Source: Acinetobacter amyesii (GTDB lineage Bacteria > Pseudomonadota > Gammaproteobacteria > Pseudomonadales > Moraxellaceae). Taken from it: a DNA stretch of 64,000 nt. The stretch spans positions 124,001 through 188,000 of the forward strand of contig NZ_MVKX01000005.1 in assembly GCF_002018365.1 (NCBI RefSeq), read 5' to 3'. This document shows positions 8,531 to 47,092 of this stretch, one piece after another. The first letter of the stretch is position 1. Every line of letters begins with the position of its first letter. The position numbers were made by a program, and so were the translations under genes. The notes beneath the pieces were generated by a model. That model saw nothing but the letters and a program-made list of their open reading frames with translations. It was not told where the DNA came from and made no database searches.

Positions 8531-9745
8531 TTAGAAACTAAAGCCAATATTTAAATTGACACGGTACATCCATTTATCACTATTTTCAGAAGTTGCAGAC
8601 GTAAAGCCTGTGCCATTGGTCGCCCCACCGATAATATTGGCATTTTTGCCCCAGGTATAATCTGCCCAGACCATAAATGGTGTAGCGATAAACATCGCAC
8701 CTGTCGTGTTCATTTGCGAAGCTGCCCAATCACTGCGTTCTTTGTCTAAATAACTATAATCATTATAAAAACGAATGGCTTTTAATTTCCCCATATTTTG
8801 CACAGGTAAGGTATAGGCAATATTTAAACTTGAAACCGTCCCTTCAGAGGCAATGAAATACGCAGGTGTTAAGCCATTCGCACCCATTAATGTCATATCA
8901 TCATTTACACCTTCTGGGTTTTCAGCATCATATTGATAATGAATCACGGAGGACTGTACATTCCAGCGCTGATAATTGCTGTTGCTATGCAAACCAGCCG
9001 CATAGTAACTACCATCTTTTTGCGTGGTTTTATTGTGTAATTGCGCAGCCGCACCTGAAAGTCCAATTTCATGTTTACCCACTTGATCGTTGCCAAATTT
9101 GCGCACAATACGAGTATTCAACTGATTCTGTTTTTCATTTTGATAAGCGGCTTGAAATGGCAAGTGATTTTCAGAAAGATCATCATAAGTTGCCGACTCC
9201 GGTGAATAACGCAAATTGGTTTCTAGCATGCGTGGGTAGTAACCGACTTTGATATCCCACTCTGGATTATTGTAATTCCAGTTCAGGCCCGGCGCAGCGT
9301 TATTGCCATAACCGAGAAAGAACGGAATATGATAGGTCCAGCCATTTTGTGGATAGGGATAGAGCGCAAATGGTTTATACACAAAACCTGCTTCAATACT
9401 GTTGTTTTTATTCAGGTTATACCCGACATAGGCCTTTTCAATGGACATCATTTCCTGATCTTGAATCAAATAACTGGCATTTAAATAAGCATCATCCGAC
9501 TTGCCTTTTAAATCTAAACGGAAAATATCGAAGTCTAATTTTCCAAAACCACGTTTATCACTGGCATCCCATTGTTCATAACGATGATTGAAACGAACTA
9601 CACCCCCAACTTTAAAACTATGCGCCCCGTCTTCACTTTTCCACTCGAGCGGATCATCTTTAGCCTGCGTCGTTGCGAAGCTATTACATAGCAAGAGCAT
9701 CGCAACCGATACAACCTTAGGATTGAGAAAAATATTATTATTCAT
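8531..9745 (-). CDS. Outer-membrane porin of the catabolic regulon
   Basis: A 404-residue predicted beta-barrel with a signal peptide (to about residue 28, TTQAKDD), alternating amphipathic strands, and a C-terminal Phe in MYRVNLNIGFSF, the usual barrel assembly signal. The start of the mature protein (HSFKVGGVVRFNHRYE, then FDIFRLDLKGK) resembles the OprO/OprP-like porin fold; the solute is unknown. It is the last gene of the minus-strand catabolic block, 68 bp after aspA. A 22-bp palindrome, related to those by the IclR gene, sits 20-41 bp upstream of the ATG. It is probably the uptake channel for the catabolic substrate. Confidence 0.85.
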   Translation of the reverse strand: MNNNIFLNPKVVSVAMLLLCNSFATTQAKDDPLEWKSEDGAHSFKVGGVVRFNHRYEQWDASDKRGFGKLDFDIFRLDLKGKSDDAYLNASYLIQDQEMMSIEKAYVGYNLNKNNSIEAGFVYKPFALYPYPQNGWTYHIPFFLGYGNNAAPGLNWNYNNPEWDIKVGYYPRMLETNLRYSPESATYDDLSENHLPFQAAYQNEKQNQLNTRIVRKFGNDQVGKHEIGLSGAAAQLHNKTTQKDGSYYAAGLHSNSNYQRWNVQSSVIHYQYDAENPEGVNDDMTLMGANGLTPAYFIASEGTVSSLNIAYTLPVQNMGKLKAIRFYNDYSYLDKERSDWAASQMNTTGAMFIATPFMVWADYTWGKNANIIGGATNGTGFTSATSENSDKWMYRVNLNIGFSF

Positions 9746-9764: not shown

Positions 9765-9786
9765 AAAGTTTTATATATAAAACTTT
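9765..9786. promoter_or_regulatory. Perfect 22-bp palindrome upstream of the porin gene, probable IclR operator
   Basis: A perfect palindrome whose core GTTTTATATATAAAAC is shared with sites at 23622-23642 and 23767-23787 near the IclR gene. It covers the porin leader or promoter; its TATATA centre could also serve as a -10 element. Confidence 0.6.
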
Positions 9787-9813
9787 GTTTGTTTTGAATT
9801 TCGGCTAAAAAAA

Positions 9814-11241
9814 TTATGCAATGTCTTGCAAATTTTCACTGACCTTCACTTCGGTAATTAAATTTTCAAAAGAGAAAACTTGCTGTAATTCTTGCTCTGT
9901 CATCAATCCTTGTGACAGTACAACCTCTTGAATGGTTTTATTTTCTGCAATACATTGCTTACCAATCGCATCACAGCGCTCATGTCCTAATATCGGATCA
10001 AGTAAAGTCACGATGCCCACGCTACGCATCACCATGTCATAGGCTTGTTGTTCATTCACCTGAATGCCTGCAAAACATTTTTCATTCAAGGTATGAATGC
10101 CTTCCACCAATAATTGAATCGACTCGTTGAGTGACAATGCAATGACCGGCTCCATGACATTTAACTGAAGTTGCCCCGCCTCTGCTGCCATAGTGATGGT
10201 TAAATCATTGCCCATGACCTTAAACGCGATTTGGTTCACGACTTCTGGAATAACTGGATTGACTTTGGCTGGCATGATCGATGAACCTGCCTGCAGTTCT
10301 GGCAGTCGGATTTCAGCCAAACCTGTACGTGGTCCTGAACTCAATAAACGTAAGTCATTACAGATTTTTGATAGCTTACAAGCCAAGCGTTTCAAGGTAC
10401 TTGAAATAATAATAAATACGCCGCAATCACTGGTCGCTTCGATATAATCTTCCGCGCCTTTAAACGATAAGCCGGTCAATTGGCTGAGGTTTTCGGTAAT
10501 ACGATGTGCGTATCCGACTGGGGAGTTCACACCTGTACCAATCGCTGTTGCGCCCAGATTAATTTCCAAGAGTAATTGACGCATCTGATCGATCAAATGT
10601 AGATCTTCATTTAATAATGTGGCAAAGGCACTGAACTCTTGCCCAACGGTCATCGGCACCGCATCTTGCAATTGGGTACGGCCCATTTTTAAGGCAAATT
10701 TATATTCGTCTGCTTTGAGTCGAATGGTGCTTACTAAGCCTGTCAGTCCCTGTAATAAATCATCCAAGCGTTGATACAAACTGATTCGTAACGCTGTCGG
10801 ATAAACATCATTGGTCGATTGCGATTTATTTACATGATCGTTGGGATGCAACTCACGATAATTGCCTTTGTTCAGTCCCAAGAATTCCAAACCAATATTG
10901 GCAATCACCTCGTTACAGTTCATGTTGACCGAGGTACCTGCTCCTCCCTGATAAACATCAATGGGAAAGGATTCCGCCCATTTTTCAGGATGCTCAATCA
11001 ATTGATCGGCACCATATTCGATAGCTGCAAGTTGCTGTGCGCTAATACGCTGAAAATGAAAGTTGGTTTGAGCTGCCGCTTTTTTAACAAAACCTAAGGC
11101 ACGAATAAAGTGCGGTGACTGTCCAATTTTCACATTGGAGATTTGAAAATTTTCGATGGCTCTGAGGGTATGAATACCATAATACGCATCGACAGGAACT
11201 TCTTTCGCTCCCAATAAATCATGCTCTATCCTTGTTTGCAT
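9814..11241 (-). CDS. aspA: Aspartate ammonia-lyase
   Basis: It converts L-aspartate to fumarate and ammonia. The 475-residue protein has the fumarase/aspartase signatures: STNDVYPTA near residue 142 and the catalytic-loop motif GSSIMPAKVNP at 319-329. TVGQEFSAFA and GAEDYIEATSD also fit AspA. The length is normal. It lies downstream of the ThDP enzyme gene, same strand, across a 120-bp gap with an inverted repeat, so it may be read through or have its own promoter. Its place beside an aspartate dehydrogenase in the same block suggests that aspartate is a product or nitrogen carrier of the pathway. Fumarase was considered, but the overall motifs favour aspartase. Confidence 0.93.
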   Translation of the reverse strand: MQTRIEHDLLGAKEVPVDAYYGIHTLRAIENFQISNVKIGQSPHFIRALGFVKKAAAQTNFHFQRISAQQLAAIEYGADQLIEHPEKWAESFPIDVYQGGAGTSVNMNCNEVIANIGLEFLGLNKGNYRELHPNDHVNKSQSTNDVYPTALRISLYQRLDDLLQGLTGLVSTIRLKADEYKFALKMGRTQLQDAVPMTVGQEFSAFATLLNEDLHLIDQMRQLLLEINLGATAIGTGVNSPVGYAHRITENLSQLTGLSFKGAEDYIEATSDCGVFIIISSTLKRLACKLSKICNDLRLLSSGPRTGLAEIRLPELQAGSSIMPAKVNPVIPEVVNQIAFKVMGNDLTITMAAEAGQLQLNVMEPVIALSLNESIQLLVEGIHTLNEKCFAGIQVNEQQAYDMVMRSVGIVTLLDPILGHERCDAIGKQCIAENKTIQEVVLSQGLMTEQELQQVFSFENLITEVKVSENLQDIA

Positions 11242-11290
11242 TTGCTCGCACCTATATGGCCTGAATTGAGTTTATTCTGATTCAAACTTT

Positions 11291-11319
11291 GTGCAATCCT
11301 CCATTTTGGAAAATTGCAC
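11291..11319. promoter_or_regulatory. Inverted repeat between the ThDP enzyme gene and aspA
   Basis: GTGCAAT and ATTGCAC are separated by 15 bases that hold a smaller TCC...GGA repeat. No T run follows on the minus strand, so it looks more like an operator or mRNA hairpin than a terminator. It lies 50-78 bp upstream of aspA. Confidence 0.4.
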
Positions 11320-11361
11320 CCTTTATGCTTCATACTTGCTTAAAACGCTTTATCTAAATAA

Positions 11362-13002
11362 TTAGTACAATTTCTTCTGCGGTGGACCTGCAAATTTCAA
11401 CGGGCCAATAGCATTCATATCTAGTTCAATCACTGCTGGGCCATTCAGATCAATCGCTTCTTGAATTGCGGTTTTAAATTCGTCTGCACTGCCCACTTTC
11501 CAGCTCTTCACGCCCATCGACTCGCCCAATAAACGGTAGTCTGGAGTGTGCAATTCATTGAAGTACTGACGGCCGCCAAAGTAGTTATTTTGAATACCGC
11601 GCATCACGCCATAACCACCATCGTTCATGATCATCAGCACCATGTCGGTGTTTTCTTGCGCCATGGTGGCAATTTCACCAATACCCAGCATCAAGCCACC
11701 ATCACCCACTAAGCCCACAACTTTTTTGTCTGGGTTAGCAATCGATGAACCAATTGCGTGTGCAAGACCAAGGCCGATTGCACCTGCCAATGAGTGAATG
11801 TTTTTATTAGGGCTTTGTACAGGGAACAAACGGCTGCCCCACGTACTGCCTGACATGGTGATGTCACGAACAAAAATCCCGTCTTCAGGCAATGCAGCGC
11901 GCAAGTGATCGCAAATCAATGCGTATTGATCCATTTGCGTACGCAGCGCATCTACCGCATGTTCACGAGCGGCCTTAATGTCTGCATCATAGCCAGCATC
12001 AATTTTGTTCACGCCATTTAAAGCGCTGAGTACACGTGCAAAAGTATCTTTGGTATCTGCACAGACAAATTGAGAAACCTTATAGTTACGCTGCTGCGCC
12101 ACTGGGTTGGCGTCAATCTGAATAATATTTTCAGGGAACTCTACTGAATAGGTTTTGGTTTCATTACTGCGTAAACGTGAGCCTGCAACAATGAATAAGT
12201 CTGCCTCTTTCATCAGCTTTTCAACGGCTGCTGAGTTATGGAATGCACGTAAACTACGTGGATGATCATCTGCCAGCACCCCGCGAGCATGGGTTGATGA
12301 CACCACAGGAATACCCAAATCTGCAAGCGCTTTCACTTCTGCCACTGCATTTAACGCACCACCACCAATCCAAACCAATGGACGCTTAGCGTTCTTCAAT
12401 GCATCTGCAATCATGGCAATTTCAGTATCTTCCGCTTGCGGCAATTGCATGGCTTTTACAGGGCCAAGATTCACTGGCAAATCAATTTCAGCGGCTTGCA
12501 CATCAATTGGAATTTCTACACTTACTGGACCCATTGGCACAGTCGTCGCAACGCGGATTGCTTCACGAATTACACCAACTGCATTGTCTGGACTAGTAAT
12601 ACGAAAAGCCGCTTTGCTCGATGCTTTTAAGAAGGTTAACTGGTCTTTGGTTTCATGAATAAAGCTGGCATCGCGGTCTAAATATTCACGTTCGACTTGA
12701 CCAGTTAAATGCAGCACTGGACTGCCCGCATTCATTGCTTCAATCAATGAGCCCACAGCATTACCAGCTCCTGCACCCGTACTGGTCAGCGCTACACCTA
12801 AACCTTTAAAGCGTGCATGTGCGTCTGCCATAGTGACAGAACCTGCTTCACCACGCGCTGCAACAAAGCGCATTTTTTCACGGCGGCCTACGGCATCTGC
12901 AATAGGCAAGTTGTGAATAGAAATCACGCCATACATGCTGTCTACATTATGCTGTTCTAATACTCGAGCGATTGCTTCGCCTACATTTACACGTTCAGTC
13001 AT
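11362..13002 (-). CDS. Thiamine-diphosphate-dependent enzyme (acetolactate synthase/decarboxylase family)
   Basis: A 546-residue three-domain ThDP enzyme. The N-terminal Pyr domain carries RGEAGSVTMADAHAR with the activating Glu; a central Rossmann-like domain follows (LVWIGGGAL). The C-terminal PP domain has the cofactor motif GDGGLMLGIGEIATMAQENT...NDGGYGVM. The family includes acetolactate synthases, benzoylformate decarboxylase and other 2-oxo-acid decarboxylases. With an aldehyde dehydrogenase gene 51 bp upstream on the same strand, a 2-oxo-acid decarboxylase yielding an aldehyde is a reasonable guess. The substrate is unknown. No regulatory subunit gene is nearby, which argues against IlvB. 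Confidence 0.85.
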   Translation of the reverse strand: MTERVNVGEAIARVLEQHNVDSMYGVISIHNLPIADAVGRREKMRFVAARGEAGSVTMADAHARFKGLGVALTSTGAGAGNAVGSLIEAMNAGSPVLHLTGQVEREYLDRDASFIHETKDQLTFLKASSKAAFRITSPDNAVGVIREAIRVATTVPMGPVSVEIPIDVQAAEIDLPVNLGPVKAMQLPQAEDTEIAMIADALKNAKRPLVWIGGGALNAVAEVKALADLGIPVVSSTHARGVLADDHPRSLRAFHNSAAVEKLMKEADLFIVAGSRLRSNETKTYSVEFPENIIQIDANPVAQQRNYKVSQFVCADTKDTFARVLSALNGVNKIDAGYDADIKAAREHAVDALRTQMDQYALICDHLRAALPEDGIFVRDITMSGSTWGSRLFPVQSPNKNIHSLAGAIGLGLAHAIGSSIANPDKKVVGLVGDGGLMLGIGEIATMAQENTDMVLMIMNDGGYGVMRGIQNNYFGGRQYFNELHTPDYRLLGESMGVKSWKVGSADEFKTAIQEAIDLNGPAVIELDMNAIGPLKFAGPPQKKLY

Positions 13003-13053
13003 TGTACTTTCCTTAAATTCTTGAATTTTTGATTACTAATTTTTTTGAGTCTG

Positions 13054-14520
13054 CTAGTCCGACCATGGATTGGCTTGCTCGTTTAAACCCAGATAAATAC
13101 TTTTTTGCTGCATATACGACAAGATACCGAGACGGCCTTTTTCACGGCCAATTCCACTGTCTTTAAAGCCGCCAAATGGTGCGCTGATGGAGAATTTTTT
13201 ATAGGTGTTAATCCACACCGTACCGACTTCCAGTAAACGGGCAATTTTCCATGCTTTACGGTAGCTTTCTGTCCAAATGCCTGCGGCTAAACCAAAACAG
13301 CTATCGTTGGCTTGTTCAAATAAGTCTTTTTCATTGTCGTATGGCATAACGACCAATACAGGGCCAAAAATTTCTTCTTGGCAGGTTTGCGCGCTGTTGC
13401 TCAAACCCGTAATAATCGTAGGCTTATAGAAGCTACCCTTGGCAAATTCACCTTCTGTAATTGCTTCACCGCCTGTAACTACCGTACCGCCTTCAGCTTT
13501 GGCTAATTCCACATAACGGTGCACAGACTCCAAATGCTTTTGGTTAATGAGTGAACCCATATGCACATTGGGCTGTTCAGGATGCCCTACACGTAAACCT
13601 TCAGTGATTTCCACCAAACGCTTTAAAAATTCGTCATAAATGGAAGCGTGAATAAATAGACGCGAACCTGCAATACACGCCTGACCTGCCGAACTGAAAA
13701 TACCGTAAGCAATGCCTTTGGCTGCTATTTCAATATCTGCATCTGGCAATACAATCGTTGGCGATTTCCCACCTAACTCTAAAGACGTGGTAATCAACTT
13801 TTCTGCGGCAATATGTGCCAAGTGACGGCCAGTCGATGTACCGCCGGTAAAGGAAATTTTTCGAACTAAAGGATGTTGAGCAATAGCATCACCAATCACT
13901 GAACCGCGTCCAACCAGCACACTTAAAATCCCTTTTGGTAAGCCTGCTTCTTCAAAGATTTTAGCCAACTCCAAAGCAATTAATGATGTCGCTTCGGCTG
14001 GTTTTAAAATCACCGCGTTACCTGCGGCAATGGCTGGTGCCAATTTTTGCACTTCACTGGCAATTGGCGAATTCCAAGGGGTAATCGCTGCTACCACACC
14101 CACAGGTTCATGCACGCTCATGGTCAAAAAGTCAGATGCACGCTGCGTGGTCAATTCTTCATTAAACGTTTCGCAGGCTGCGGCATTAAAGCGTGCCGTT
14201 GCTGCTGCACTCATGACCAAGGCACGTGTTTCCGCTAAAGGCTTGCCGTTGTCACGGGTTTGCAATTTAGATAATTCATCTGCTCGGGCCTCAATAATAT
14301 CAGCGACGCGGTACAAAATTTTTGCGCGCTCATGCGGCAAAGAATTACGCCACTCTGGCTTACGCCATGCTTGATCGGCCTTTGTAATCGCTTCTTCAAC
14401 ATCTTCTAATGTTGCGGTAGATATTTCCGCATTGACTGAATTGTCTGCTGGAAAAACACTTTGAATCACGTTGCCGCGGCCTAAACGCCATTCACCTGCA
14501 ATATAAATTTCTTTAACCAT
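13054..14520 (-). CDS. NAD(P)-dependent aldehyde dehydrogenase
   Basis: A 488-residue ALDH superfamily enzyme that oxidises an aldehyde to its acid. Visible motifs are VAAITPWNSPI, KPAEATSLIALELAKI, the glycine-rich FTGGTSTGR, the catalytic Glu in LELGGKSP, and the nucleophile Cys in GQACIAGSRLF. EEIFGPVLVVMPYD lies near the end. The ATG at 14520 is chosen: homologues start near KEIYIAGEW, and the longer reading from 14556 would overlap the aspartate dehydrogenase gene. It lies 19 bp after that gene and 51 bp before the ThDP enzyme. It may take the aldehyde made by the ThDP enzyme; this is inference. Confidence 0.92.
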   Translation of the reverse strand: MVKEIYIAGEWRLGRGNVIQSVFPADNSVNAEISTATLEDVEEAITKADQAWRKPEWRNSLPHERAKILYRVADIIEARADELSKLQTRDNGKPLAETRALVMSAAATARFNAAACETFNEELTTQRASDFLTMSVHEPVGVVAAITPWNSPIASEVQKLAPAIAAGNAVILKPAEATSLIALELAKIFEEAGLPKGILSVLVGRGSVIGDAIAQHPLVRKISFTGGTSTGRHLAHIAAEKLITTSLELGGKSPTIVLPDADIEIAAKGIAYGIFSSAGQACIAGSRLFIHASIYDEFLKRLVEITEGLRVGHPEQPNVHMGSLINQKHLESVHRYVELAKAEGGTVVTGGEAITEGEFAKGSFYKPTIITGLSNSAQTCQEEIFGPVLVVMPYDNEKDLFEQANDSCFGLAAGIWTESYRKAWKIARLLEVGTVWINTYKKFSISAPFGGFKDSGIGREKGRLGILSYMQQKSIYLGLNEQANPWSD

Positions 14521-14539
14521 GGCACTCACCAAATTCCTT

Positions 14540-15331
14540 TTAAATCTGAATCGCATCTACGCTGTTGCGGCATGCACGGATCACGCTCAATGCTGCCAAT
14601 GTTGATGTTTTGGGATTGCTCTCCAAAGGCACACCAATCATTTCAATACTCATTTGACCAAACCGCCCTTGGGCAATAATGGTATGTTTGTTTTGGTTAA
14701 TATGTGGATCGACCGTTAGCTCAACCATGGTTTCATCCATGCCGATACCCGCCAATGCAATGGTGGCAGCCACGTTGGCATTGGCTGGAAAATGCAATGC
14801 CGCTTCACGCGCAGTACCGGTATAAAAAATGGTGGCTTCAGTCACTTGATCTAAATCAATGAGTTTTTCTGCATAACTGCCACGCCAGCTGTTTGGACTT
14901 TTGCAACCTTTATAAGTGACCTTTTCCAAGCCACCTTCTTTGGCCGCTGAAATGCCGTCAATCCCTGCAATCGCACCTGCCAGTAAATGAATGTGTGCGC
15001 CCGAATGTTCAGCGGTATTTTGTAACTCTTCAAAGAAAGCGCTGTCAGCCAATGTCCCTACAGAGATCAAGCCAATATTCCAGCCTTTTTCCAGCACTTT
15101 TGCCGCGTGTTCTTTCACCGCAGCTTGACCCGCTACTTCAATCACATAGTCGGGCGTGCCATCACAGTCGTCGATATCGGAAATGACTTGCACATCTGCG
15201 GCAAGCGCGTCCTGTACACTGGCAATACTGCGTTCTGGTACCACTACCCATTTCAATTCAAGGTCTTTGGGCAAATGGCTGCGAACCTCATTGGCCATTG
15301 CGCCAAAACCAATCATCATCAGCTGTTTCAT
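14540..15331 (-). CDS. L-aspartate dehydrogenase family protein
   Basis: A 263-residue NAD(P)-dependent amino-acid dehydrogenase of the NadX/AspDH family. The N-terminal Rossmann fold starts MIGFGAMANE. The C-terminal domain has the family marks LLAGAIAGIDGISAA, the FPANANVAATIALAG segment at 181-195, and DPHINQNKHTI with a conserved His at 210. The known reaction is L-aspartate to iminoaspartate/oxaloacetate plus ammonia. Since nadB is present at 59 kb, a role in NAD synthesis is unlikely, and a catabolic or aminating role is inferred. To my recollection, the biochemically studied Pseudomonas aeruginosa enzyme also sits beside ALDH and decarboxylase genes. Confidence 0.88.
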   Translation of the reverse strand: MKQLMMIGFGAMANEVRSHLPKDLELKWVVVPERSIASVQDALAADVQVISDIDDCDGTPDYVIEVAGQAAVKEHAAKVLEKGWNIGLISVGTLADSAFFEELQNTAEHSGAHIHLLAGAIAGIDGISAAKEGGLEKVTYKGCKSPNSWRGSYAEKLIDLDQVTEATIFYTGTAREAALHFPANANVAATIALAGIGMDETMVELTVDPHINQNKHTIIAQGRFGQMSIEMIGVPLESNPKTSTLAALSVIRACRNSVDAIQI

Positions 15332-15340
15332 ATGACCACC

Positions 15341-16135
15341 TTATAAATGCTTGTTAAAGCCGCCAGAAACATCGATTGCGGAACCTGTGGTATACGACGC
15401 CATTGGCGATGCCAAGAACACCAAAGCACGCGCGGGCTCTTCAGGTTTACCTAACCGCTCCATTGGAATACCGCGTTTTTTTGCAATATTGCCAATCCAT
15501 TCTTCCCACGTTTGCTTCTGATCAGAACGGTCAGCAAAGCGGCGTTTCCACTGTGCAGATTCCACCATGCCCAATAAAATAGAGTTCACGCGGATGTTGT
15601 ACTGAGAGAATTCATGCGCCAATGAATGGGTTAAATTCAGCAAAGCTGCACGTGCAGAAGAAGTTGCAATCATGTGCGGTTCAGGCTGCAACGCCAGCAA
15701 AGAATTAACATTGGTAATCGATGCACACTCTGACTGCTGCAATGCCGGCAAAAATGCGCGGATAGGATGCAGCACACTGAAATATTTCAATTCAACTTCT
15801 TTAAGCCAATCTTCATCCGCAGTATTTTCAAAGTTCGAAACCCGACCTTGGCCTGCGTTATTAATTAGAATGTCCACACCGCCAAATTCGTTTTGCACCT
15901 GATCTGCAAATTTTTTGACATCGTTTTTATCTAAAACATTGCAAGTTGAAGTTAAAACTTTGGCATTTGGATAGCGCGATAAAATCAGTGCTTTAGAATC
16001 ATTTAAACGCTGTTCATCACGGCCGCACCATGCCACAAGCGCGCCTTCCGCTACTAAAAGCTCTACCGTTGCCAGTCCAATGCCAGACGAGCCGCCGGTG
16101 ACTACTGTTTTTTTTCCTTCTAATTGGAAGCTCAT
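15341..16135 (-). CDS. SDR family protein with a degenerate active site
   Basis: A 264-residue short-chain dehydrogenase fold: GGSSGIGLATVE for cofactor binding (about 14-25), INNAGQG at 91-97, and a C-terminal SGG end. The expected catalytic YxxxK is absent. Counting 13 residues from Ser145 puts Thr158 where Tyr is expected and Arg162 where Lys is expected (TSSAR). It may use a different chemistry, or bind without oxidoreduction. Its stop lies 9 bp before the aspartate dehydrogenase start, so the two are tightly coupled. It differs from the typical SDR at 21138-21902. Confidence 0.85.
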   Translation of the reverse strand: MSFQLEGKKTVVTGGSSGIGLATVELLVAEGALVAWCGRDEQRLNDSKALILSRYPNAKVLTSTCNVLDKNDVKKFADQVQNEFGGVDILINNAGQGRVSNFENTADEDWLKEVELKYFSVLHPIRAFLPALQQSECASITNVNSLLALQPEPHMIATSSARAALLNLTHSLAHEFSQYNIRVNSILLGMVESAQWKRRFADRSDQKQTWEEWIGNIAKKRGIPMERLGKPEEPARALVFLASPMASYTTGSAIDVSGGFNKHL

Positions 16136-16156
16136 TTCCCTATCTCACATCAGTGC

Positions 16157-16993
16157 TTAATTAAGCGACAATAAAATTTGGTTGAATTGCTCTGCTTGGT
16201 CCAAATAACTTAAGTGGCCCGCAGCGGCAATGTCGTAACACGGCTTCAGCTGAAACTGATCCGCCAATGCTTGAATATCCTGAGGAGGCGTTATGCCATC
16301 CGCCATGCCTTTAATCACATGGACATTGTGCTGTTCTGGGTTTAAATAGCTCTGAATCGCGTCATAGGCCAACAGGTACGATGCATCTGTAAAGCCTTCT
16401 AATTGAATGTTTTGCATGACTACATCAATTAACGCTAGTGCTTCAGCCGAAGCATTTGCCACCAAATACGGGCCGCGCGACTGTGCCATGCCTGATGCGC
16501 CTAAGGTCTGCAGCATTTTCGGACGTTTTTCAAATACATCCTGCTGCCTTTGTGCATCACTACCTTTATAACCCTGCGCTGCATTGGCAAGGACCACGGC
16601 ATCTACCATGTCTGGATAGCGTGCATTAAAGGCTGCTGCCTGCATTGCACCTAAAGAATGACCAACCAAAATCATTTTGTTTTGATTCTGAGCTGATCCT
16701 AAGTTCAGGCCTAATGCAGACAGCATGCCTTTTAAACGCTGTGCATAATTATCTGCATTCGGCTGTTCTTCGGCTAAAGGATCAGACTGGCCATAACCCG
16801 GTGCATCCCATGCAATCACATGAAAATGATGACTCAAATCTTGCAACTGCTTGACCCATGAACCTGAACCCGAACTAATGCCATGTAGCAAGACCAGAAC
16901 TTTGCCTGTGCCTGCTTCACGGTAAGATTGCTGTACACCGTCAAACTGAACGGTTTTTAATTCAAACTGTGCCAATTGCTCAACTAAAGTCAT
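16157..16993 (-). CDS. Alpha/beta-fold hydrolase
   Basis: A 278-residue alpha/beta hydrolase. The oxyanion motif LVLLHGISSGSGSW is at about 33-46, the nucleophile elbow GHSLGAM at 111-117 (Ser113), an acid candidate Asp in MADGITPP, and the catalytic His in AGHLSYLDQ. In ring-cleavage pathways such enzymes cut the C-C bond of the meta-cleavage product; the assignment here rests on context only. It could instead be an esterase or an enol-lactone hydrolase. Same operon, 21 bp from the SDR gene and 17 bp from the cupin gene. Confidence 0.88.
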   Translation of the reverse strand: MTLVEQLAQFELKTVQFDGVQQSYREAGTGKVLVLLHGISSGSGSWVKQLQDLSHHFHVIAWDAPGYGQSDPLAEEQPNADNYAQRLKGMLSALGLNLGSAQNQNKMILVGHSLGAMQAAAFNARYPDMVDAVVLANAAQGYKGSDAQRQQDVFEKRPKMLQTLGASGMAQSRGPYLVANASAEALALIDVVMQNIQLEGFTDASYLLAYDAIQSYLNPEQHNVHVIKGMADGITPPQDIQALADQFQLKPCYDIAAAGHLSYLDQAEQFNQILLSLN

Positions 16994-17010
16994 CTCTTTT
17001 CCTCCTCAAA

Positions 17011-17532
17011 TTAACGCTTGATTTGAGACAAAGGATGTTCAGGCGGATAGTTCGGAATCGTCGGCTTGCCTGTACCGAGCATTACGCACATTAGGGCATC
17101 TTCATTTCCTGGGTTAAACAAACCTCGGTAAATCCCCGGTGGAATTGAAATCAAGTCACGTTCTTTTAAGCGAGTTGAAAACTTCTGACCTTCATGTTCA
17201 ATAAACAGATCAATTTCACCACGCAGCATAAAGAACACTTCTTCAACATCGTGATGGATATGCAGCGGGCCTTCGCATTGCGGTGGCAAGACCATAGTTG
17301 AAAAGGTAAAGTTTTCTGCAGGCACCGTATTTACATCATTTGCTACGCCTGTTGCACCTGTCCCCATATAACGCATTTGCGCACGGCGGTATTTCGGGTC
17401 GTAATCCGCTTGGAATTTGAGTGCATCATAATCGTATTGACGCGTTTCAAAGCGAGCGATGCGTCCGCCAATCCAGTCTTCTAATGTTTGACCTTCAGGC
17501 TGTTTCCAAGATTCAAATTGCTGTACAGACAT
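17011..17532 (-). CDS. Cupin domain protein of the catabolic operon
   Basis: A 173-residue single-cupin protein. The cupin metal motif is visible: GPLHIHHDVEEVFFMLRGEIDLFIE (about 90-114), then ISIPPGIYRGLFNPG. The N-terminal 70 residues (WIGGRIARFETRQYDYDALKFQAD) are not recognised. Cupins in such clusters can be dioxygenases, isomerases or metal-dependent decarboxylases, so the role is open. It follows a 166-bp gap after the MFS gene that holds two hairpins and may contain an internal promoter. Confidence 0.85.
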   Translation of the reverse strand: MSVQQFESWKQPEGQTLEDWIGGRIARFETRQYDYDALKFQADYDPKYRRAQMRYMGTGATGVANDVNTVPAENFTFSTMVLPPQCEGPLHIHHDVEEVFFMLRGEIDLFIEHEGQKFSTRLKERDLISIPPGIYRGLFNPGNEDALMCVMLGTGKPTIPNYPPEHPLSQIKR

Positions 17533-17550
17533 GATTCTCTCCTTATTTCA

Positions 17551-17637
17551 GCTCACTGCCATTTCATAAAAGTGGAGCTGGATCTGATCTAAATTGTTCT
17601 TACCGTCAGCACCAATTGCTTTAAGCGTCTTGACGGT
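17551..17637 (-). other. Two hairpins in the MFS-cupin gap
   Basis: ACCGTCA/TGACGGT (17602-17608 with 17631-17637) and AGCTCCACT/AGTGAGCT (17551-17574, one bulge) lie between the MFS stop and the cupin ribosome binding site. Neither has a T run. They could set differential expression within the operon by mRNA processing or stability. Confidence 0.35.
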
Positions 17638-17698
17638 CATGTGTATCGGTTAAATAAAAGTTTGGGTTCACGACTTGGCTTTAACTTTGGCTCAAGCC

Positions 17699-18922
17699 TT
17701 AATAACGTTTCAGCAATGGCGCGAGGAAGAAGGAACCGATCACGGCGACTGCTGCCAAGAAGGTAATGCCAATATTGAAACTGCCGGTTTGCATCACAAT
17801 TGCACCAATCACCACAGGCGCTGCTGCACTGGCAAAATTACCTAGACCATTGAAAATACCGCCTGCTGTTGCACCAACATCTGCTGAGGTAATGCGTGCC
17901 AACAGTGCAAACACTGCCGCTACACCAAAGCCCCAAGCCATTGCACTTAAAGACATGGCTAAAATCACCAGCATTGGATCTTTCGCAATGACCATCACAT
18001 ACATGAAGATCCCTGCAATCAATAAACCACCACTAACCTGAATCGCACGTTTGCCTAGCTTGTCTGAAAGGAATGCACCAGCCACTTCACCAATCAGCAT
18101 GGCAATAAATGGCAAGCTTGAATAAATACCAAACTCTTTTAAGTTGAAGCCTTTATCTTGAATCAGATAAGACGGCACCCAACTGTTTAGACCCCATAAA
18201 TAGGTCATCAAAGCGATATTGAAAATGCACAGCAGCCAGAACGAACCATTGCCCAGCAAGGTTTTGGTATTGCTCAAATGCGTCTTGAAATTCACGCGTT
18301 TGCCAACACCTTCCAAATCCACAGTGCGTTTCAACTGTAAGTTACGCAGGCCATACACAATCAGCATCAATACGATGAAGGTCATTGCCCCCATGACAAA
18401 GAAGGTGGTGTGCCAGTCGTAGTGCGCCAAAACAAATGCAGTAATCGGGAAGCCGAGGAATGCGCCAATGGGAGTTCCGAGCAGGAACATGGTCGAAGCA
18501 CGCGCTTGCTGACGGTCGGTATAGGTTTGTTTCACAATGGTATAAGCCAAAGCAAACAACGGACCTTCAGCCAAACCGAGCAGTACGCGCAGCGTCATCA
18601 TCGTGGAATAATCTGTGGTAAAACCCATCAAAAACATCAATAGGCCCCAAGACGCCACACTCCAAAACAGCATTTTTTTAGGGCAGAAAATATCGCCTAA
18701 AAAGCTCAGGAACATTGACGAAAAACCGTAAGCCAGCAAAAAGCTCGTCATCAGCCAGCCTAGTTTTGCCTTGTCCTGTGCAATGCCCATCGCATTTTGG
18801 AAGGTTGCATCTGAAAACAAGACAGCAATACTGATTTTGTCAAAGAAAGCCAGTACCACGCAGATCATTAAAATGATCGCTGGGGTCCAATGCTTTAATC
18901 CTGTTTTTGCATCATTATCCAT
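17699..18922 (-). CDS. MFS transporter, probable aromatic-acid or anion symporter
   Basis: A 407-residue permease with 12 predicted membrane segments. The MFS loop 2-3 signature appears as GDIFCPKKMLFWSVASWG, and the repeat in the second half as SDKLGKRAIQVSGG. The N-terminal style (FFDKISIAVLFSD, GLAEGPLFALAY) resembles the anion:cation symporter group, which carries carboxylates. It lies inside the catabolic operon, 41 bp after the ferredoxin reductase gene, and probably imports the substrate across the inner membrane. The specificity is unknown. Confidence 0.9.
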   Translation of the reverse strand: MDNDAKTGLKHWTPAIILMICVVLAFFDKISIAVLFSDATFQNAMGIAQDKAKLGWLMTSFLLAYGFSSMFLSFLGDIFCPKKMLFWSVASWGLLMFLMGFTTDYSTMMTLRVLLGLAEGPLFALAYTIVKQTYTDRQQARASTMFLLGTPIGAFLGFPITAFVLAHYDWHTTFFVMGAMTFIVLMLIVYGLRNLQLKRTVDLEGVGKRVNFKTHLSNTKTLLGNGSFWLLCIFNIALMTYLWGLNSWVPSYLIQDKGFNLKEFGIYSSLPFIAMLIGEVAGAFLSDKLGKRAIQVSGGLLIAGIFMYVMVIAKDPMLVILAMSLSAMAWGFGVAAVFALLARITSADVGATAGGIFNGLGNFASAAAPVVIGAIVMQTGSFNIGITFLAAVAVIGSFFLAPLLKRY

Positions 18923-18963
18923 GGGTAAATCCTTTCATTCATGGGCTAATATTTTTTAAACGC

Positions 18964-20172
18964 TTACTTCAATTTCATTAAATTAAAGTCTGGATCTTGC
19001 AATTCAGCTGGATCCAATTCGCGCTGGCTGGCCATCCATCGTTTTGCCAGTTTGATTAATTTTGAATCATTTACTGCGATCATATTCAGCAGCCGTTGAT
19101 TTGCATCCAAATAGAAAAAGCTGATTTGCGTTTCTGTAGTTTTACGGATCACCACCTGATGAGTTTTTTCAGGCTGATATGTCCCTAAAATCTGAATGTT
19201 ACATTGATACTGATCTGACCATAACCAAGGTATATCCTGATAAGCCGTCATCTCACCCAACATTGATTTTGCTGCAGAAATAGCCTGATTTTGCGCATTC
19301 GCCCAAGACTGAATGCAGTAACCGAGTGATGGATGAATCGCAACATCACCTGCAGCATAGATGTCTACATCTGAGGTTTGTCCATATTCATTTACCACGA
19401 TGCCGTCTTTCACATCGAGCTCTGCCAGTGCAGCCAGTTCTTTTGCAATTTCTGCACCTGCACCGACCACCACACAATCAAACTGTTTTAATTTAATGTC
19501 TGCATCAAACACGTCAACATGATGATCTGCTGTTTCGATCAGATGCAATTTGGTCGCATTTAAATGAATCGCTGTACCATTGCTTTCATGCAAGTGCTTG
19601 AGAAAATCAGAAACTTCTGGGCTGACACTGCGTGCGCAAAGGCGTGAACCGTATTCAAAAATTTCAACCTGCTTGCCCTGCTTACGCGCAGTTGCAGCAA
19701 TTTCAAGACCAATCCAGCCACCGCCAATCACGGCAATATGTTCTGCAGATTTAAATTTTTCTGTCAGCTTTTGGCAGTCTTGAATATCACGCATGGTGTA
19801 AACATTCTGCATGCTCGACCAAGCTGAAACAGGAATACGCGCTCGGCTGCCCGTCGCAATTAGCAATTTGTCATAAGGCAAAACTTTGCCGCTTTCCAAA
19901 TGAACGGTTTTATCCGCTTTATCCAGTTTGACCGCATGATCTGGCTTATGCCAAGTCACTGAAAAATCATTCACCTGCTCATGAGAAAACAGATTCAAGC
20001 TTTCTACTTCTGCTTCTTGTGACAGCACTTGCTTTGACAGTGGCGGACGTTCATAGAACACCTGCTCTTCATTTGAAATCACGTGAATTTCACCGTCAAA
20101 GCCTTGTCCACGTAAAGTATGGACTGCCCATCCTGCGGCTTGGCCTGCACCGACAATCACTATTCTGTTCAT
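18964..20172 (-). CDS. FAD-dependent ferredoxin reductase of the Rieske oxygenase system
   Basis: A 402-residue BphA4/rhodocoxin-reductase-type flavoprotein. An FAD Rossmann motif IVGAGQAAGWA is at 5-15, YERPPLSK follows near residue 45, and the NAD(H) motif VIGGGWIGLEIAA is in the middle. YAAGDVA marks the second FAD contact, and the C-terminal domain is of the reductase type (IPWLWSDQY). It should pass electrons from NADH to the Rieske ferredoxin at 23303-23608. Together with the oxygenase alpha subunit they make a complete three-component oxygenase. Confidence 0.92.
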   Translation of the reverse strand: MNRIVIVGAGQAAGWAVHTLRGQGFDGEIHVISNEEQVFYERPPLSKQVLSQEAEVESLNLFSHEQVNDFSVTWHKPDHAVKLDKADKTVHLESGKVLPYDKLLIATGSRARIPVSAWSSMQNVYTMRDIQDCQKLTEKFKSAEHIAVIGGGWIGLEIAATARKQGKQVEIFEYGSRLCARSVSPEVSDFLKHLHESNGTAIHLNATKLHLIETADHHVDVFDADIKLKQFDCVVVGAGAEIAKELAALAELDVKDGIVVNEYGQTSDVDIYAAGDVAIHPSLGYCIQSWANAQNQAISAAKSMLGEMTAYQDIPWLWSDQYQCNIQILGTYQPEKTHQVVIRKTTETQISFFYLDANQRLLNMIAVNDSKLIKLAKRWMASQRELDPAELQDPDFNLMKLK

Positions 20173-20197
20173 GCTGATCTCCTTATAACCATTTACC

Positions 20198-21127
20198 TTA
20201 GGCAGGCTTTACTTGACGGCGGGTTTCATGATCCAAACCACCTTCAATTGCCCATTCGGTAAATAATTCCAAGCTATGTTCTTCTTCACGCGGCTGCCAT
20301 TCTTCTGTCAAATAATCATCATTGGTGTAGTACTCAAACGCACCGCCCAATGGAGAATTCACATACCAAAAATATGCAGATGAAATCGGGTGGCGACCTG
20401 GGCCAATAAAGGTTGACCAGTCTTGACGGTTCATGCTTAAACCGCCGCCAATGACTTCATGAATATCACGGACCACAAAGGCCACATGGTTCAAGCCCGC
20501 TGGCTTATTCGGCACGGACAATAAGAACAAATCATGATGGAAACCTTCGCCACGGCAGCGCAAGAATGCACCGCGCTTACGGTAAGCATCCGATAAATGG
20601 AAGCCAACTTTTTCAATGTAAAACGCTTGTGTCGTTTCCAAATCTGGTGTGAAAAACACCACATGACCAATAGCTACCGGTTCTGCTTTTTCATACACAG
20701 GACTAGCTGCATTCACACGTTGTATATTGCCAAATTGGTTAATGCCTTCTGTTTTTGCTTCTGGCAATGCATGCGTTATGCTTTTTTCAAACACAATGGT
20801 CATACCATTTGGGTCACGGCACTGCACATGCGATGCTGAACTTGCAAAACCCGGCTCATTAGCTAAATTTGCTTTTAAAGTTTCAAAATCTTGATCATTT
20901 TCAACACCCCATGTTACTTCACGCAGTGTTGAACCGGCTTCAATCGCTGGCGGTAAACGTGCATCAGAGGTATCAAACAGATAGAGTTTGCTGCCATTTT
21001 GCGTTTGATATAAATCTGTACCATCAATATCTGTTGCCACAGACTTTAAGCCAAAATCAGCTAAAAATGTCTTTGCCTCTTGGCGGTTTTCGACACCAAA
21101 TTTAAGGACTTCAATTCCTGTAATCAT
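20198..21127 (-). CDS. Two-domain VOC protein, probable extradiol ring-cleavage dioxygenase
   Basis: A 309-residue type-I extradiol-like protein with two VOC modules. The C-terminal module has the expected metal ligands: His in IGHVVFFTPD, His in GLNHVAFVVRD and Glu in GGAFEYYTND. The SSAYFWYVNSP segment fits the active-site wall. The N-terminal module lacks the ligands, as in catechol 2,3-dioxygenases. The ATG at 21127 with AAGGAG upstream is chosen over an in-frame start at 21160 that would run into the SDR gene. It should open a catechol-like ring next to the diol; the substrate is unknown. Confidence 0.88.
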   Translation of the reverse strand: MITGIEVLKFGVENRQEAKTFLADFGLKSVATDIDGTDLYQTQNGSKLYLFDTSDARLPPAIEAGSTLREVTWGVENDQDFETLKANLANEPGFASSASHVQCRDPNGMTIVFEKSITHALPEAKTEGINQFGNIQRVNAASPVYEKAEPVAIGHVVFFTPDLETTQAFYIEKVGFHLSDAYRKRGAFLRCRGEGFHHDLFLLSVPNKPAGLNHVAFVVRDIHEVIGGGLSMNRQDWSTFIGPGRHPISSAYFWYVNSPLGGAFEYYTNDDYLTEEWQPREEEHSLELFTEWAIEGGLDHETRRQVKPA

Positions 21128-21137
21128 GTCTTGCTCC

Positions 21138-21902
21138 TTAATTAAATACGAAACCGCCATTCACAGGAATATTCTGTCCGGTCACAAAAGACGATAAATC
21201 TGAAAGCAGATAAATCGCTGTGCCGTTCACATCCTGCGGAAGCTGTTGACGCTGTATGGCCCTTCCATTCACATACAAATCGTGGCGCGATTGCGGGACA
21301 TATTCTGTGGCTTCGACCAGTGTTAAACCTGGGCTGATGGTATTCACACAGATATTGTCTGGGCCTAACTCACTTGCCATTGAACGGGTCATCGAAATAA
21401 TGGCGCCTTTACTTGCAACATAAGCCATCAGCTTTGGGGCGCCCCACAGCGCTGTGTCTGAAGCAATATTGATAATTTTGCCCTGATCTGACGCTTTTAA
21501 ATGCGGTACGCAAGCTTGAGAAACCAACCATGTACCTTTGACATTGACCGTCATCACACGGTCCCAAAGCGCTTCGTCATAGCTCATCATGTCGACACCG
21601 CCCACCCCTGTCGCTAAGGCAGCACAGTTGATTAGACCATCCAATCCACCTAAAACACCCACGGCAATTTGTACGGCATTTTGAATCGAATTTTTATCGC
21701 TCAAATCAATCATGACAGATGAGACTTTTAAGCCATTTTTCGCCAAGCTTTGCGCTTCATCATGCACTTGATCGGCCAAGATATCAGCCATCACCACTGC
21801 CGCGCCTGCTTCAGCAGCCGCTTGGGCAAAATCAAGTCCTAAGCCGCGCGCAGCACCTGTCACCAAGATGCGCTTGCCGGCTAAAATCTGCACATTAGCC
21901 AT
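21138..21902 (-). CDS. SDR family dehydrogenase, possible cis-diol dehydrogenase
   Basis: A 254-residue classical SDR. GAARGLGLDFA is the cofactor loop, NCAALATG replaces the usual NNAG, and the catalytic set is intact (Ser148, Tyr161, Lys165 in YVASK). The last residues form GGFVFN. Placed between the Rieske oxygenase and the extradiol dioxygenase, it could re-aromatise a cis-dihydrodiol to a catechol; the position supports this, but the sequence alone does not. Its start overlaps the oxygenase stop by 8 bp, which points to translational coupling. Confidence 0.88.
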   Translation of the reverse strand: MANVQILAGKRILVTGAARGLGLDFAQAAAEAGAAVVMADILADQVHDEAQSLAKNGLKVSSVMIDLSDKNSIQNAVQIAVGVLGGLDGLINCAALATGVGGVDMMSYDEALWDRVMTVNVKGTWLVSQACVPHLKASDQGKIINIASDTALWGAPKLMAYVASKGAIISMTRSMASELGPDNICVNTISPGLTLVEATEYVPQSRHDLYVNGRAIQRQQLPQDVNGTAIYLLSDLSSFVTGQNIPVNGGFVFN

Positions 21903-22959
21903 TTGACGCTTCCTTCATTTCAATGCGGTTTTCATCTTTCACTTCACGCAGCGCTAAGATTTTTTTGATTTGCTTTTCCGCTTCTTTTTTCATGAGGCGG
22001 CGTAAGCGAGATAAGCCTACATCGTGCTGATAAAGGAATTCGTGTTGACGTGCATTGGGCGCCATGTTTTCTAAAATAATGCGGTCTTGTTCCAGTACAT
22101 CCCAGTGCAATTGCTCAAGATGGTTACGGTACAAGAAACGCCAAACATTACGCTGCCAGCCTGACACTTTACGGCAGCGCCAGAAGAATACGCGCGTGTT
22201 GTCGGCATCAATCGGAGTTGCAAAACCGACAATCCAAAACTCACCACCAGGACCAAAAGACTTACGGTAAGGAATCGATAAACGTAGCCATGCCGCACCG
22301 GTTTGACCATATTCAACCCAGTCAAAGTTCACACCAGTTTGGCCTTCTTTTTCAAAGACGAAACCATCTTGGGTTGCGCGGTGCTTCATTTCAGCTGTAC
22401 GTTCACCTTCCGCCATAGAGTGCGAAGTGCAATGCAGGTATGTGCCGTGCATCGGGTCCATCACGTTATCAATGGCATATTGATGATTCACTTTCCAATC
22501 TGCCATACATAGGAATGAGCTCCACTCATCACTTGACAGCTGATCGGGTAAGTTAAGTTCTGCAGGCGCTTCATTAGCATCAAGACCAAACCAAATAAAG
22601 ATCGCATCATTCATTTCTTTGACTTGATATGATTTTACGCAGTCGCTCCCTTTGAGCGGGCAATCATGTACTGCTGGCACATCTTCCACCACGCCGTCAT
22701 GACGCACTTCTACACCGTGATACCAGCAAGCAACGCGGTTACCCAAATTCCAGCCTAGCGATAAACGTGCGCCGCGGTGCGGACAGCGGTCTTCTAGTGC
22801 ATGTACAGCGCCTTGCTCATCGCGCCATACCACAATATTTTCGCCTAAACGGGTAATCCCAACAGGATTTGAACCTACTTCCCAGCTTGCCAAGACTGGA
22901 TACCATTGATCACGCAGACCAAGATCCAAATATTGTTCTAAATTAATTTCTGCAGTCAT
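21895..22959 (-). CDS. Rieske non-haem iron oxygenase, alpha subunit
   Basis: A 354-residue ring-hydroxylating or demethylating oxygenase. The Rieske [2Fe-2S] ligands are Cys59 and His61 (RCPHRGARLS) and Cys78 and His81 (CWYHGV). The mononuclear iron motif is DNVMDPMHGTYLHCTSH with His171 and His176. No beta subunit is encoded nearby, so it probably forms an alpha-only oligomer like the phthalate/vanillate oxygenase group. Dedicated ferredoxin and reductase genes are in the same operon. Whether it dihydroxylates a ring, mono-oxygenates or demethylates is open. Confidence 0.93.
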   Translation of the reverse strand: MTAEINLEQYLDLGLRDQWYPVLASWEVGSNPVGITRLGENIVVWRDEQGAVHALEDRCPHRGARLSLGWNLGNRVACWYHGVEVRHDGVVEDVPAVHDCPLKGSDCVKSYQVKEMNDAIFIWFGLDANEAPAELNLPDQLSSDEWSSFLCMADWKVNHQYAIDNVMDPMHGTYLHCTSHSMAEGERTAEMKHRATQDGFVFEKEGQTGVNFDWVEYGQTGAAWLRLSIPYRKSFGPGGEFWIVGFATPIDADNTRVFFWRCRKVSGWQRNVWRFLYRNHLEQLHWDVLEQDRIILENMAPNARQHEFLYQHDVGLSRLRRLMKKEAEKQIKKILALREVKDENRIEMKEASNG

Positions 22960-22974
22960 GATGAAATCCTTTTC

Positions 22975-23274
22975 TTAATAGCCTAGACGCTGCATCTCTT
23001 TCGAGAAGCTCTCAGTCGTCCAAACCTCTCCTGCCACTGTTCTAAACCCTTGCTGATTCAGTGCATCGGTTAATGCATCCAGTTCTGTCACATCGTTATT
23101 GAAGGCTTGAATTAAATGCTGCACAAAATCCAATTCATATTGGCTCGGCGCGCGGCTGCGGTTTTGCCAAACCAAATGTTCAACCTGACCCGGAACTTGA
23201 ATATTGTTAATGCCTGCGTCAGTCGAAGGCGTTGCGTTAATCCATTTAGCTAGCTTTTCGTTAAATGCTTTCAT
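22975..23274 (-). CDS. Small recombinase-like HTH-domain protein
   Basis: A 99-residue protein beginning MKAFNEKLAKWINATPSTDA. The C-terminal half (DALTDALNQQGFRTVAGEVWTTESFSKEMQRLG) looks like the recombinase-type helix-turn-helix seen in small proteins beside Rieske oxygenases; the N-terminal half includes VEHLVWQNRSRAPSQYELDF. The ATG at 23274 with AAGGAAA upstream is chosen; an upstream in-frame ATG at 23430 would overlap the ferredoxin gene. It sits between the ferredoxin and oxygenase genes, so it may assist or regulate the oxygenase rather than recombine DNA. Function unknown. Confidence 0.75.
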   Translation of the reverse strand: MKAFNEKLAKWINATPSTDAGINNIQVPGQVEHLVWQNRSRAPSQYELDFVQHLIQAFNNDVTELDALTDALNQQGFRTVAGEVWTTESFSKEMQRLGY

Positions 23275-23302
23275 GTGAATATTTCCTTTTCTTCCTTCAG
23301 CC

Positions 23303-23608
23303 TTAGAGTTGAATTTGAACTTCACCGTTTTCAACCCGTACTGGGTAAGTACATAAATCTCTGCAACCTGGGCCACTTTCCAAAGCCCCTGTTTCCAAGT
23401 TGAAAATCGCTTCATGCAGCGGGCACTCAACTGTCAGTCCTTCAATGAAGCCTTCAGTGAGTAAAGCAAATGCATGCGGACAGACGTTTTCAACCGCGAA
23501 ATAATTTTCTTCGATAAGAAAGACACCGATCTTTTTGTCTTCGACTTCAACCGCTTTTGGCTCTTCATCAGCGACTTCATTCACTTTGCAAACAGATATC
23601 CAGTTCAT
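23303..23608 (-). CDS. Rieske-type [2Fe-2S] ferredoxin
   Basis: A 101-residue electron carrier (106 if started at 23623). The Rieske ligands are Cys-X-His in VCPHAF and Cys-X2-His in ECPLHEAIF, 17 residues apart, as in NahAb/BphA3-type ferredoxins. The ATG at 23608 is preferred because GGAAG lies eight bases before it; the ATG at 23623 has no site and overlaps a probable operator. It is the first gene of the catabolic operon and supplies electrons to the oxygenase from the reductase at 18964-20172. Confidence 0.9.
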   Translation of the reverse strand: MNWISVCKVNEVADEEPKAVEVEDKKIGVFLIEENYFAVENVCPHAFALLTEGFIEGLTVECPLHEAIFNLETGALESGPGCRDLCTYPVRVENGEVQIQL

Positions 23609-23621
23609 ATGCTCATCTTCC

Positions 23622-23642
23622 ATGTTTTATATGCAAAACAAT
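23622..23642. promoter_or_regulatory. IclR-type operator candidate in the leader of the catabolic operon
   Basis: ATGTTTTATATGCAAAACAA is an imperfect palindrome just upstream of the ferredoxin ribosome binding site and downstream of the -10 element. It shares its half-sites with 9765-9786 and 23767-23787. Confidence 0.55.
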
Positions 23643-23667
23643 ATTTAATATTTGAAACATTGAGAAT

Positions 23668-23697
23668 AGGATAATGCGTGAGCAATTTAATTGTCAA
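23668..23697 (-). promoter_or_regulatory. Promoter of the catabolic operon
   Basis: Minus-strand TTGACA (23697-23692) and TATCCT (23673-23668) with an 18-base spacer. The predicted start lies about 20 bases before the operator at 23622-23642. Confidence 0.6.
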
Positions 23698-23745
23698 TTT
23701 TTATAAATTTATATATTTCATCAAGATAGTTAAAAAACACATTTT

Positions 23746-23789
23746 GCAATGTTTTATTTACAAATAAATGTTTTATATATAAACATTGC
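23746..23789. promoter_or_regulatory. Tandem palindromes in the iclR promoter region
   Basis: GCAATGTTT (23746) is mirrored by AAACATTGC (23781). Inside are two palindromes: one centred on TTTATTTACAAATAAA and one at 23767-23787 with the core GTTTTATATATAAAC. It lies about 80 bp upstream of the IclR gene and is the likely autoregulatory site. Confidence 0.55.
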
Positions 23790-23869
23790 GATCTCATTTT
23801 TAGGCCGCTAAAATAGCCCCAATAGGTTATTTATTTTTATATAAACTTAATCAAAGATGAGCTTGGCAA

Positions 23870-35868: not shown

Positions 35869-36602
35869 ATGGTTATACGTATAAAACCGAATCGAGATTC
35901 GATGACTATATATAGTCATGCAAACACAGTTCTAAGATTTGAACCGATTTTATTAAAAGATAGTGCATTTATATGTTTCTTTCTAAAAATCCACAAAGAA
36001 CCTAATTACAGATCATATTTTAATGTTAGTTGTCATTTTGGCTTAAATTTCAATGCATCCATTTCAATATTCAATCTCTTTCTTTTTTAACATTCAGTCT
36101 ATATTTCTACTATATATAGCAACGTTTTCAACAGCATTGAAACGTTGGCGAACAAAAACTATGTAATGAATAAACCACTGCTTGCATATGGGTGTTTTAG
36201 ACCGGTACCTTTTTAATCCTGTCCCTTTATTTTTAGATATAACATTGCAACTTATGTAGCTTCTAAACAGTATTTCGCAACGCGATAAAGTTTATTCGTT
36301 CTGCGTTTTTATGACGCATGAGTTTTAGAGTCATCTTTATTTCAAATGATTTGTGAATATTTGCAAGTTATGTAAATGAATATGTCACTTTTCAATATGT
36401 TAACTGCGAAAAAATCCTTTGCTTTGTCTTTTTTTGTATATCTATTTATGAAAGCATGCACTGTCAGTGGTATCTTAGTTGCTATTGGTAACCTTTACCT
36501 TTAATGAGCTATGAAACCAGAAGGTCATCACAAATTTCAAGATCTTTGCCCCTCGAAATTTTGTTCATACTCATCGCTAAAGCAACTGGAAATTTTTTAT
36601 TT
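35869..36602. other. 734-bp intergenic region with several palindromes
   Basis: No convincing gene. It contains CGAATC-GA-GATTCG (35888-35901), a perfect 18-bp palindrome ATGACTATATATAGTCAT (35902-35919) and a long hairpin with arms CAACGTTTTCAA/TTGAAACGTTG (36120-36147, one T bulge). The first two abut each other directly after the operon terminator. They could mark operators, a small RNA or a degraded element. The 3' part should hold the mltB promoter. Confidence 0.5.
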
Positions 36603-39248: not shown

Positions 39249-39276
39249 AAAAGCCAGTGTTTAAACACTGGCTTTT
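39249..39276. terminator. Perfect 28-bp palindrome, bidirectional terminator
   Basis: AAAAGCCAGTGTTT mirrored by AAACACTGGCTTTT, between the convergent DUF962 and DUF3465 genes. Confidence 0.75.
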
Positions 39277-47072: not shown

Positions 47073-47092
47073 GTTTAAACATATGTTTAAAC
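47073..47092. promoter_or_regulatory. Perfect 20-bp palindrome upstream of the hypothetical gene
   Basis: GTTTAAACATATGTTTAAAC, identical on both strands, at a promoter-like position. A dimeric regulator site is likely; no regulator gene is beside it. Confidence 0.6.

Follow-up and report, generated by a model that had tools for sequence, protein, structure and literature searches.

A palindromic motif predicted to unite a ring-degradation operon, its IclR-family regulator and a porin gene in one Acinetobacter regulon

We investigated the control of a catabolic gene block in Acinetobacter amyesii, using a 64-kb window (the whole stretch of DNA that was analysed) taken from a genome of 3.42 Mb in 14 contigs. 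The block (9814–23608, reverse strand) runs leftward from a gene, iclR, for an IclR-family regulator of 272 aa (23870–24688, forward strand) to a gene for a putative outer-membrane porin of 404 aa (8531–9745, reverse strand). Palindromic sites lie in three leaders, namely O1 before the catabolic operon, O2 before iclR and P before the porin gene, and very probably the IclR-family protein binds all three and represses the operon, its own gene and the porin gene, with an aromatic compound as inducer. Sequence comparison documents the sites themselves, their spacing and conservation, the synteny of the block and the co-occurrence of the motif with iclR. The initial annotation had proposed a single IclR regulon reaching both ends of the block, and these observations support it; on the same grounds we infer the binding and the direction of control. 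The porin gene, which had been described as distant, instead closes this leftward block.

Three predicted operators and their architecture

The porin-proximal site P (9765–9786, AAAGTTTTATATATAAAACTTT) is, as first noted, a perfect palindrome of 22 bp, with a 16-bp core at 9768–9783, and lies some 20 bp upstream of the start codon of the porin gene. It is one of five even palindromes with arms of at least 9 bp in the window, and an extra half-site, GTTT (9787–9790), lies beside it, 19 bp in register with its left arm and conserved in the alignment of P. The two palindromes near iclR had been reported to match this core. They do so with two mismatches each, but both are imperfect, keeping six of the eight symmetric pairs, and are thus weaker than was implied: site A of O1, in the leader of the ferredoxin gene, at 23624–23639 (GTTTTATATGCAAAAC), and site A of O2, before iclR and 146 bp from that of O1, at 23770–23785 (GTTTTATATATAAACA). 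With at most two mismatches the core occurs at exactly three places in the window, against a mean of 0.05 and a maximum of one in shuffled windows. Four other perfect palindromes, of 18–28 bp, are present in the window at 35902–35919, 38957–38980, 39249–39276 and 47073–47092. The possibility that the porin palindrome is a terminator was set aside by reading, without a terminator scan: it lies shortly before the start codon and no T-run follows it on the coding strand.

For comparison, 175 genomes of the genus were screened for iclR at a cut-off of E 1e-40 or better, which 61 satisfied, and long stretches were compared from 40 of the 60 other iclR-bearing genomes. With L047 (truncated where its contig stops) and L078 (rearranged) excluded, this left 39 loci, the window and 38 relatives, comprising 777,737 bases in the conservation scan; the loci are phylogenetically related, so counts over them are not independent events. 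Seven close relatives of the IclR protein, among 11 loci found, are 68–83% identical to it and all from Acinetobacter, and in an order-level sample of 293 genomes the only one with a match at 1e-60 was the window's own, with no relative outside the genus.

Similarly spaced sites had been noted in the leaders of both operons; the alignment of these loci corrects this, in that each operator near iclR is a tandem of palindromes 19 bp apart. The weaker partner, site B, lies inward in both cases (23643–23658 for O1, 23751–23766 for O2), and the two operators thus face each other. This spacing falls within the 18–22 nt that separate the centres of tandem operators of the IclR family in 94 orthologous groups, according to Suvorova and Gelfand (PMC8222616), while at P only the extra half-site is found. 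The predicted promoter of the catabolic operon (23668–23697, reverse strand) consists of a -35 element TTGACA (23692–23697), an 18-bp spacer and a -10 element TATCCT (23668–23673), with the consensus TTGACA-N18-TATNCT over the loci and TTTACA in L056. In 35 of the 39 loci, site B of O1 starts 8–9 bp past the -10 element, the exceptions being L044, L048, L049 and L057, where the promoter scan chose another place or spacing. Because O1 thus begins just downstream of the operon's -10 element, its position suggests that a protein bound there would act as a repressor. The predicted iclR promoter (23786–23814, forward strand; TTGCGA at 23786–23791, a 17-bp spacer, TAAAAT at 23809–23814) abuts O2, and in six of the 39 loci, the window included, the best predicted -35 element of iclR starts 16–17 nt downstream of where O2 site A begins.

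In the mechanism that these arrangements point to, the IclR protein would bind O1 and O2 as a dimer of dimers, that is, a tetramer, contacting at each the palindrome GTTTTATATATAAAAC and its weaker partner 19 bp away, possibly with joint occupation of the two operators, and at the porin end it would bind the palindrome of P together with the extra half-site. Without inducer, IclR on O1, downstream of the operon promoter, and on P, before the porin start, would block transcription, and at O2 it would limit its own synthesis. An aromatic substrate or intermediate would release it and bring the uptake channel and the enzymes on together; the catabolic operon and the porin gene are thus probably switched together.

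Conservation of the sites and association with iclR

All 39 loci contain O1 at no more than three mismatches (21 of them exact; the pick in L049 is probably site B), O2 at no more than four, and P at no more than four, with 37 of the P sites within three. Among resampled porin leaders, matches within three mismatches arose in 0.6% and within four in 5%. The distance between the A sites of O1 and O2 is 146 bp in 31 loci and 144–148 bp in 35, the remaining four O2 picks (L044, L049, L050, L066) falling outside that range. These are final picks, drawn from 95–185 bp from O1, whereas the first were forced to 140–152 bp. On those first picks rest both the mean identities, 0.87–0.95 for site A against 0.62–0.63 for the DNA between O1 and O2 (32 loci), and the classification of the near-matches: of 97 sites with at most two mismatches, 90 lie at O1, O2 or P, six downstream of iclR and one inside the porin gene of L073. 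In L044, where the O2 candidate is at 127 bp, 9 bp separate the end of the -10 element from O1 site A, compared with 27–28 bp elsewhere, which looks like the loss of a single 19-bp unit from O1.

Across the genus, 47 of the 175 genomes contain the exact 16-mer, and each of these is one of the 61 iclR bearers; the 114 genomes that lack iclR have no copy (Fisher 2e-30, uncorrected for kinship). The reversed control pattern at zero mismatches occurs in one of 175. By reading, 28 of the 47 have a copy in the cluster and 19 only outside it. At no more than one mismatch, a hand tally gives 166 matches over the 61 iclR-bearing genomes and 43 over the other 114. The initial annotation had asked for a genome-wide search and held that occurrence of the motif at random frequency would speak against the regulon. 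The source genome alone gives a weak answer, as described below; where the test counts, in the placement of near-matches over the 39 loci and the confinement of exact copies to iclR-bearing genomes, the distribution is not random. What distinguishes the motif is its position in three leaders and its conservation, rather than its genome-wide count.

Other arrangements were found in individual relatives. In the excluded locus L078 (genome G002), the block lies on the other strand with iclR after the thiamine diphosphate (ThDP) enzyme gene, and the ferredoxin gene is preceded by two sites 19 bp apart, beyond which a porin gene diverges; this porin shares 44% identity with that of the window. A flavoprotein gene lies downstream of iclR in five of six loci examined (L051, L072, L073, L074 and L076), with a site of at most two mismatches in its leader in four of the five and pairs 19 bp apart in L073 and L076; the flavoprotein of L073 is an FAD monooxygenase by profile. 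L056 (genome G039) has no recognisable genes between the cupin gene and iclR, yet keeps O1 and O2, 144 bp apart.

Several observations weigh against the proposed regulon. Within the source genome, where the exact 16-mer occurs once, the core with at most two mismatches is found at 11 places, three of them in this cluster, compared with seven for the reversed control, which is only slightly above background and carries no weight alone. P is often off consensus at its centre: the symmetry of pair 7/10 is kept in 27 of the 39 loci (T-A in 14, C-G in 13; C-A in 11 and T-C in one break it) and that of pair 8/9 in 15, so that symmetry is maintained in the arms and only partly in the centre. The P alignment over the 39 loci contains no full second palindrome, no consistent porin promoter was identified across them, and the iclR promoter prediction is inconsistent outside the six loci mentioned. 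Exact or near-exact copies before biofilm-type genes, described below, mean that another protein could share the motif. Finally, the case for this particular IclR is one of comparing sequences, which makes it a candidate for binding and repression. An AT-rich inverted repeat was also seen upstream of P (L052–L063 and others, 24 aligned loci); its pairing is kept through two-sided changes in several pairs, no T-run follows it, and L045 and L076 fit it poorly.

The regulated genes and alternative readings of the sites

The catabolic block is syntenic in the relatives. Leftward from iclR it encodes a Rieske ferredoxin, an HTH_62 protein, a Rieske oxygenase, an SDR, an extradiol-type dioxygenase, a ferredoxin reductase (named by look, without a family call), an MFS transporter, a cupin, an alpha/beta hydrolase, a second SDR, an aspartate dehydrogenase, an aldehyde dehydrogenase, a ThDP enzyme, an aspartase/fumarase-type lyase and the porin, a set that looks like a pathway for the hydroxylation and cleavage of aromatic rings. 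In almost every relative, the small protein with the recombinase-like HTH_62 domain (22975–23256 in the window) is encoded between the genes for the ferredoxin and the oxygenase. An orthologue of the porin gene ends the block in all 39 loci; its product, named after the initial annotation and from its place and look, matched nothing in NCBIfam, among PDB sequences or in Pfam, the last searched also at E 5. The lyase gene adjoins it only in the window, L044 and L068, and relatives that lack the lyase have a gap of 150–360 bp before the porin gene. The regulator belongs to the IclR family by two Pfam models, HTH_IclR (61.6 bits, cut-off 22) and IclR_C (159.9 bits, cut-off 24). Its nearest NCBIfam model is PcaR/PcaU/PobR (TIGR02431), to which it scores 160.4 bits, short of that family's cut-off of 284.75.

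Expression data for the corresponding genes of A. baumannii, whose A1S tags were equated with the window genes by annotation and gene order, not sequence comparison, come from published work: mucin raises A1S_0954 and A1S_0956–0958 (PMC5757984), and A1S_0945, 0946 and 0956 are listed as biofilm-only, with very low values (PMC3758355). On the substrate of the pathway, the papers on these locus tags give expression data only.

The IclR protein might bind the same sites as an activator or dual regulator, like PcaU (an activator by the title of a cited paper), with the porin gene mainly read through and P a minor internal site. We hold this to be unlikely, though a contender to be taken seriously, given that PcaR/PcaU/PobR is the nearest model, albeit below cut-off, and that O2 abuts the predicted -35 element in the window. 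The orthologous A. baumannii leader, a 329-bp intergenic fragment between A1S_0944 and A1S_0945, moreover drives lux on plain LB (PMC4328036), which would be unexpected under strict repression. Against activation stands the position of O1 downstream of the predicted -10 element in 35 of the 39 loci, a place typical of repressors, and against read-through the gap before the porin gene in lyase-less relatives, because its 150–360 bp leave room for a promoter of the porin's own.

It is a good deal less probable that the palindromes are read by another DNA-binding protein with this specificity, which might regulate surface genes, and that iclR is a mere neighbour. Such a protein would account for nearly the same palindrome before bap-like, csuA/B-like and pgaA-like genes in 16 genomes, all of which carry iclR; these are the genomes with close bap- and pgaA-like genes, probably of the A. 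baumannii-calcoaceticus group, and we take the csuA/B-like pilin to be Csu. The product families by profile are BapA_N, spore coat U domain and PgaA. The palindrome lies 259–261 bp upstream of the bap-like gene (L111–L126; exact in 15 of 16, degenerate in genome G060), 88 bp upstream of the csuA/B-like gene in all six genomes with a close homologue (L141–L146; four exact, two with one mismatch) and 290–294 bp upstream of pgaA in all 16 (L181–L196; four exact, 11 with one mismatch, one with two), with a second copy of at most one mismatch 31 bp further upstream in three genomes. Among the aligned bap and csu sequences, at least n-1 share the site unchanged between variable flanks, but several other stretches are equally constant, so that this footprint is suggestive only. 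Of the remoter homologues examined (14 loci for bap, 14 for csu and 13 for pga), L138 alone has a site with at most two mismatches. A literature search for a published BfmR motif gave no usable passage.

The same rival would also suit a palindrome that stands elsewhere in the genome, with a Rieske oxygenase gene on one side and an OprD-type porin gene on the other, in L165 (genome G134) and L176 (genome G029, where the oxygenase was named by look); this OprD-type porin gene is a possible second porin target. What counts against a different binder is that sites occupy iclR's own leader, that the 19-bp tandem is typical of the IclR family, that genomes without iclR have no exact copy, and that the biofilm-gene sites have no visible 19-bp partner (by reading). 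Co-occurrence cannot decide which protein binds the biofilm-gene sites, because all 16 genomes carry iclR. That in these genomes the aromatic-catabolism IclR itself also controls a Bap-type adhesin, a Csu-type pilus and poly-N-acetylglucosamine (PNAG) export is a doubtful proposition, which, if true, would tie surface attachment to the sensing of aromatic nutrients.

Chance likeness in AT-rich leaders, which the AT-richness of the motif and own-genome counts near those of the reversed control might favour, is rejected as next to incredible, since none of 100 window shuffles reached three matches, site A is far better conserved than the DNA between the sites, and resampled porin leaders seldom matched within three mismatches.

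Known IclR-family systems and implications

As far as sequence can tell, the regulon is real and of a known kind; the regulator, the motif and the assignment of the porin are new. A text search of the literature for the 16-mer found no paper. In PMC8222616, tandem operators of the IclR family are spaced much as here (19 bp), whereas the half-site GTTTTA is without the C that the group-1 consensus has: by eye, 12 of the 16 core positions fit NGTYCRAW4TYGRACN, its C/G pair being T/A here, and the second group-1 form, GTTYCRYW3RYGRAAC, is one base longer than the core. PcaU and PobR of Acinetobacter baylyi resemble the present case in belonging to the nearest NCBIfam model and, according to the same source, in combining a palindrome with an additional half-site. 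They differ in the family score and in their operator, TTTGTTCGATWATCGMACAMA, which has CG pairs where T/A stands here.

The nearest precedent is KdgR, which represses the porin KdgM2 in Yersinia and plant pathogens (PMC5559549): one IclR-family repressor over catabolic genes and a substrate-specific porin, an arrangement predicted here from the conserved site only. The KdgR system differs in serving pectin derivatives and in its operator sequence and porin family. PheR of Sphingobium, which belongs to the IclR family, represses a ring-hydroxylation operon and has wider outer-membrane effects (PMC13273656), offers a parallel to the control predicted here for such an operon; unlike in our case, its minimal motif is GCAACG and its envelope effects come from transcriptomics.

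Operators are now predicted for a regulator carried by 61 of the 175 genus genomes, and a family-less outer-membrane protein is assigned to a ring-degradation pathway, which makes its substrate testable. The mirrored operator pair at a fixed distance would be simple to test for looping, and the palindrome before bap-, csu- and pga-like genes offers a concrete way to test whether biofilm genes come under a shared regulator.

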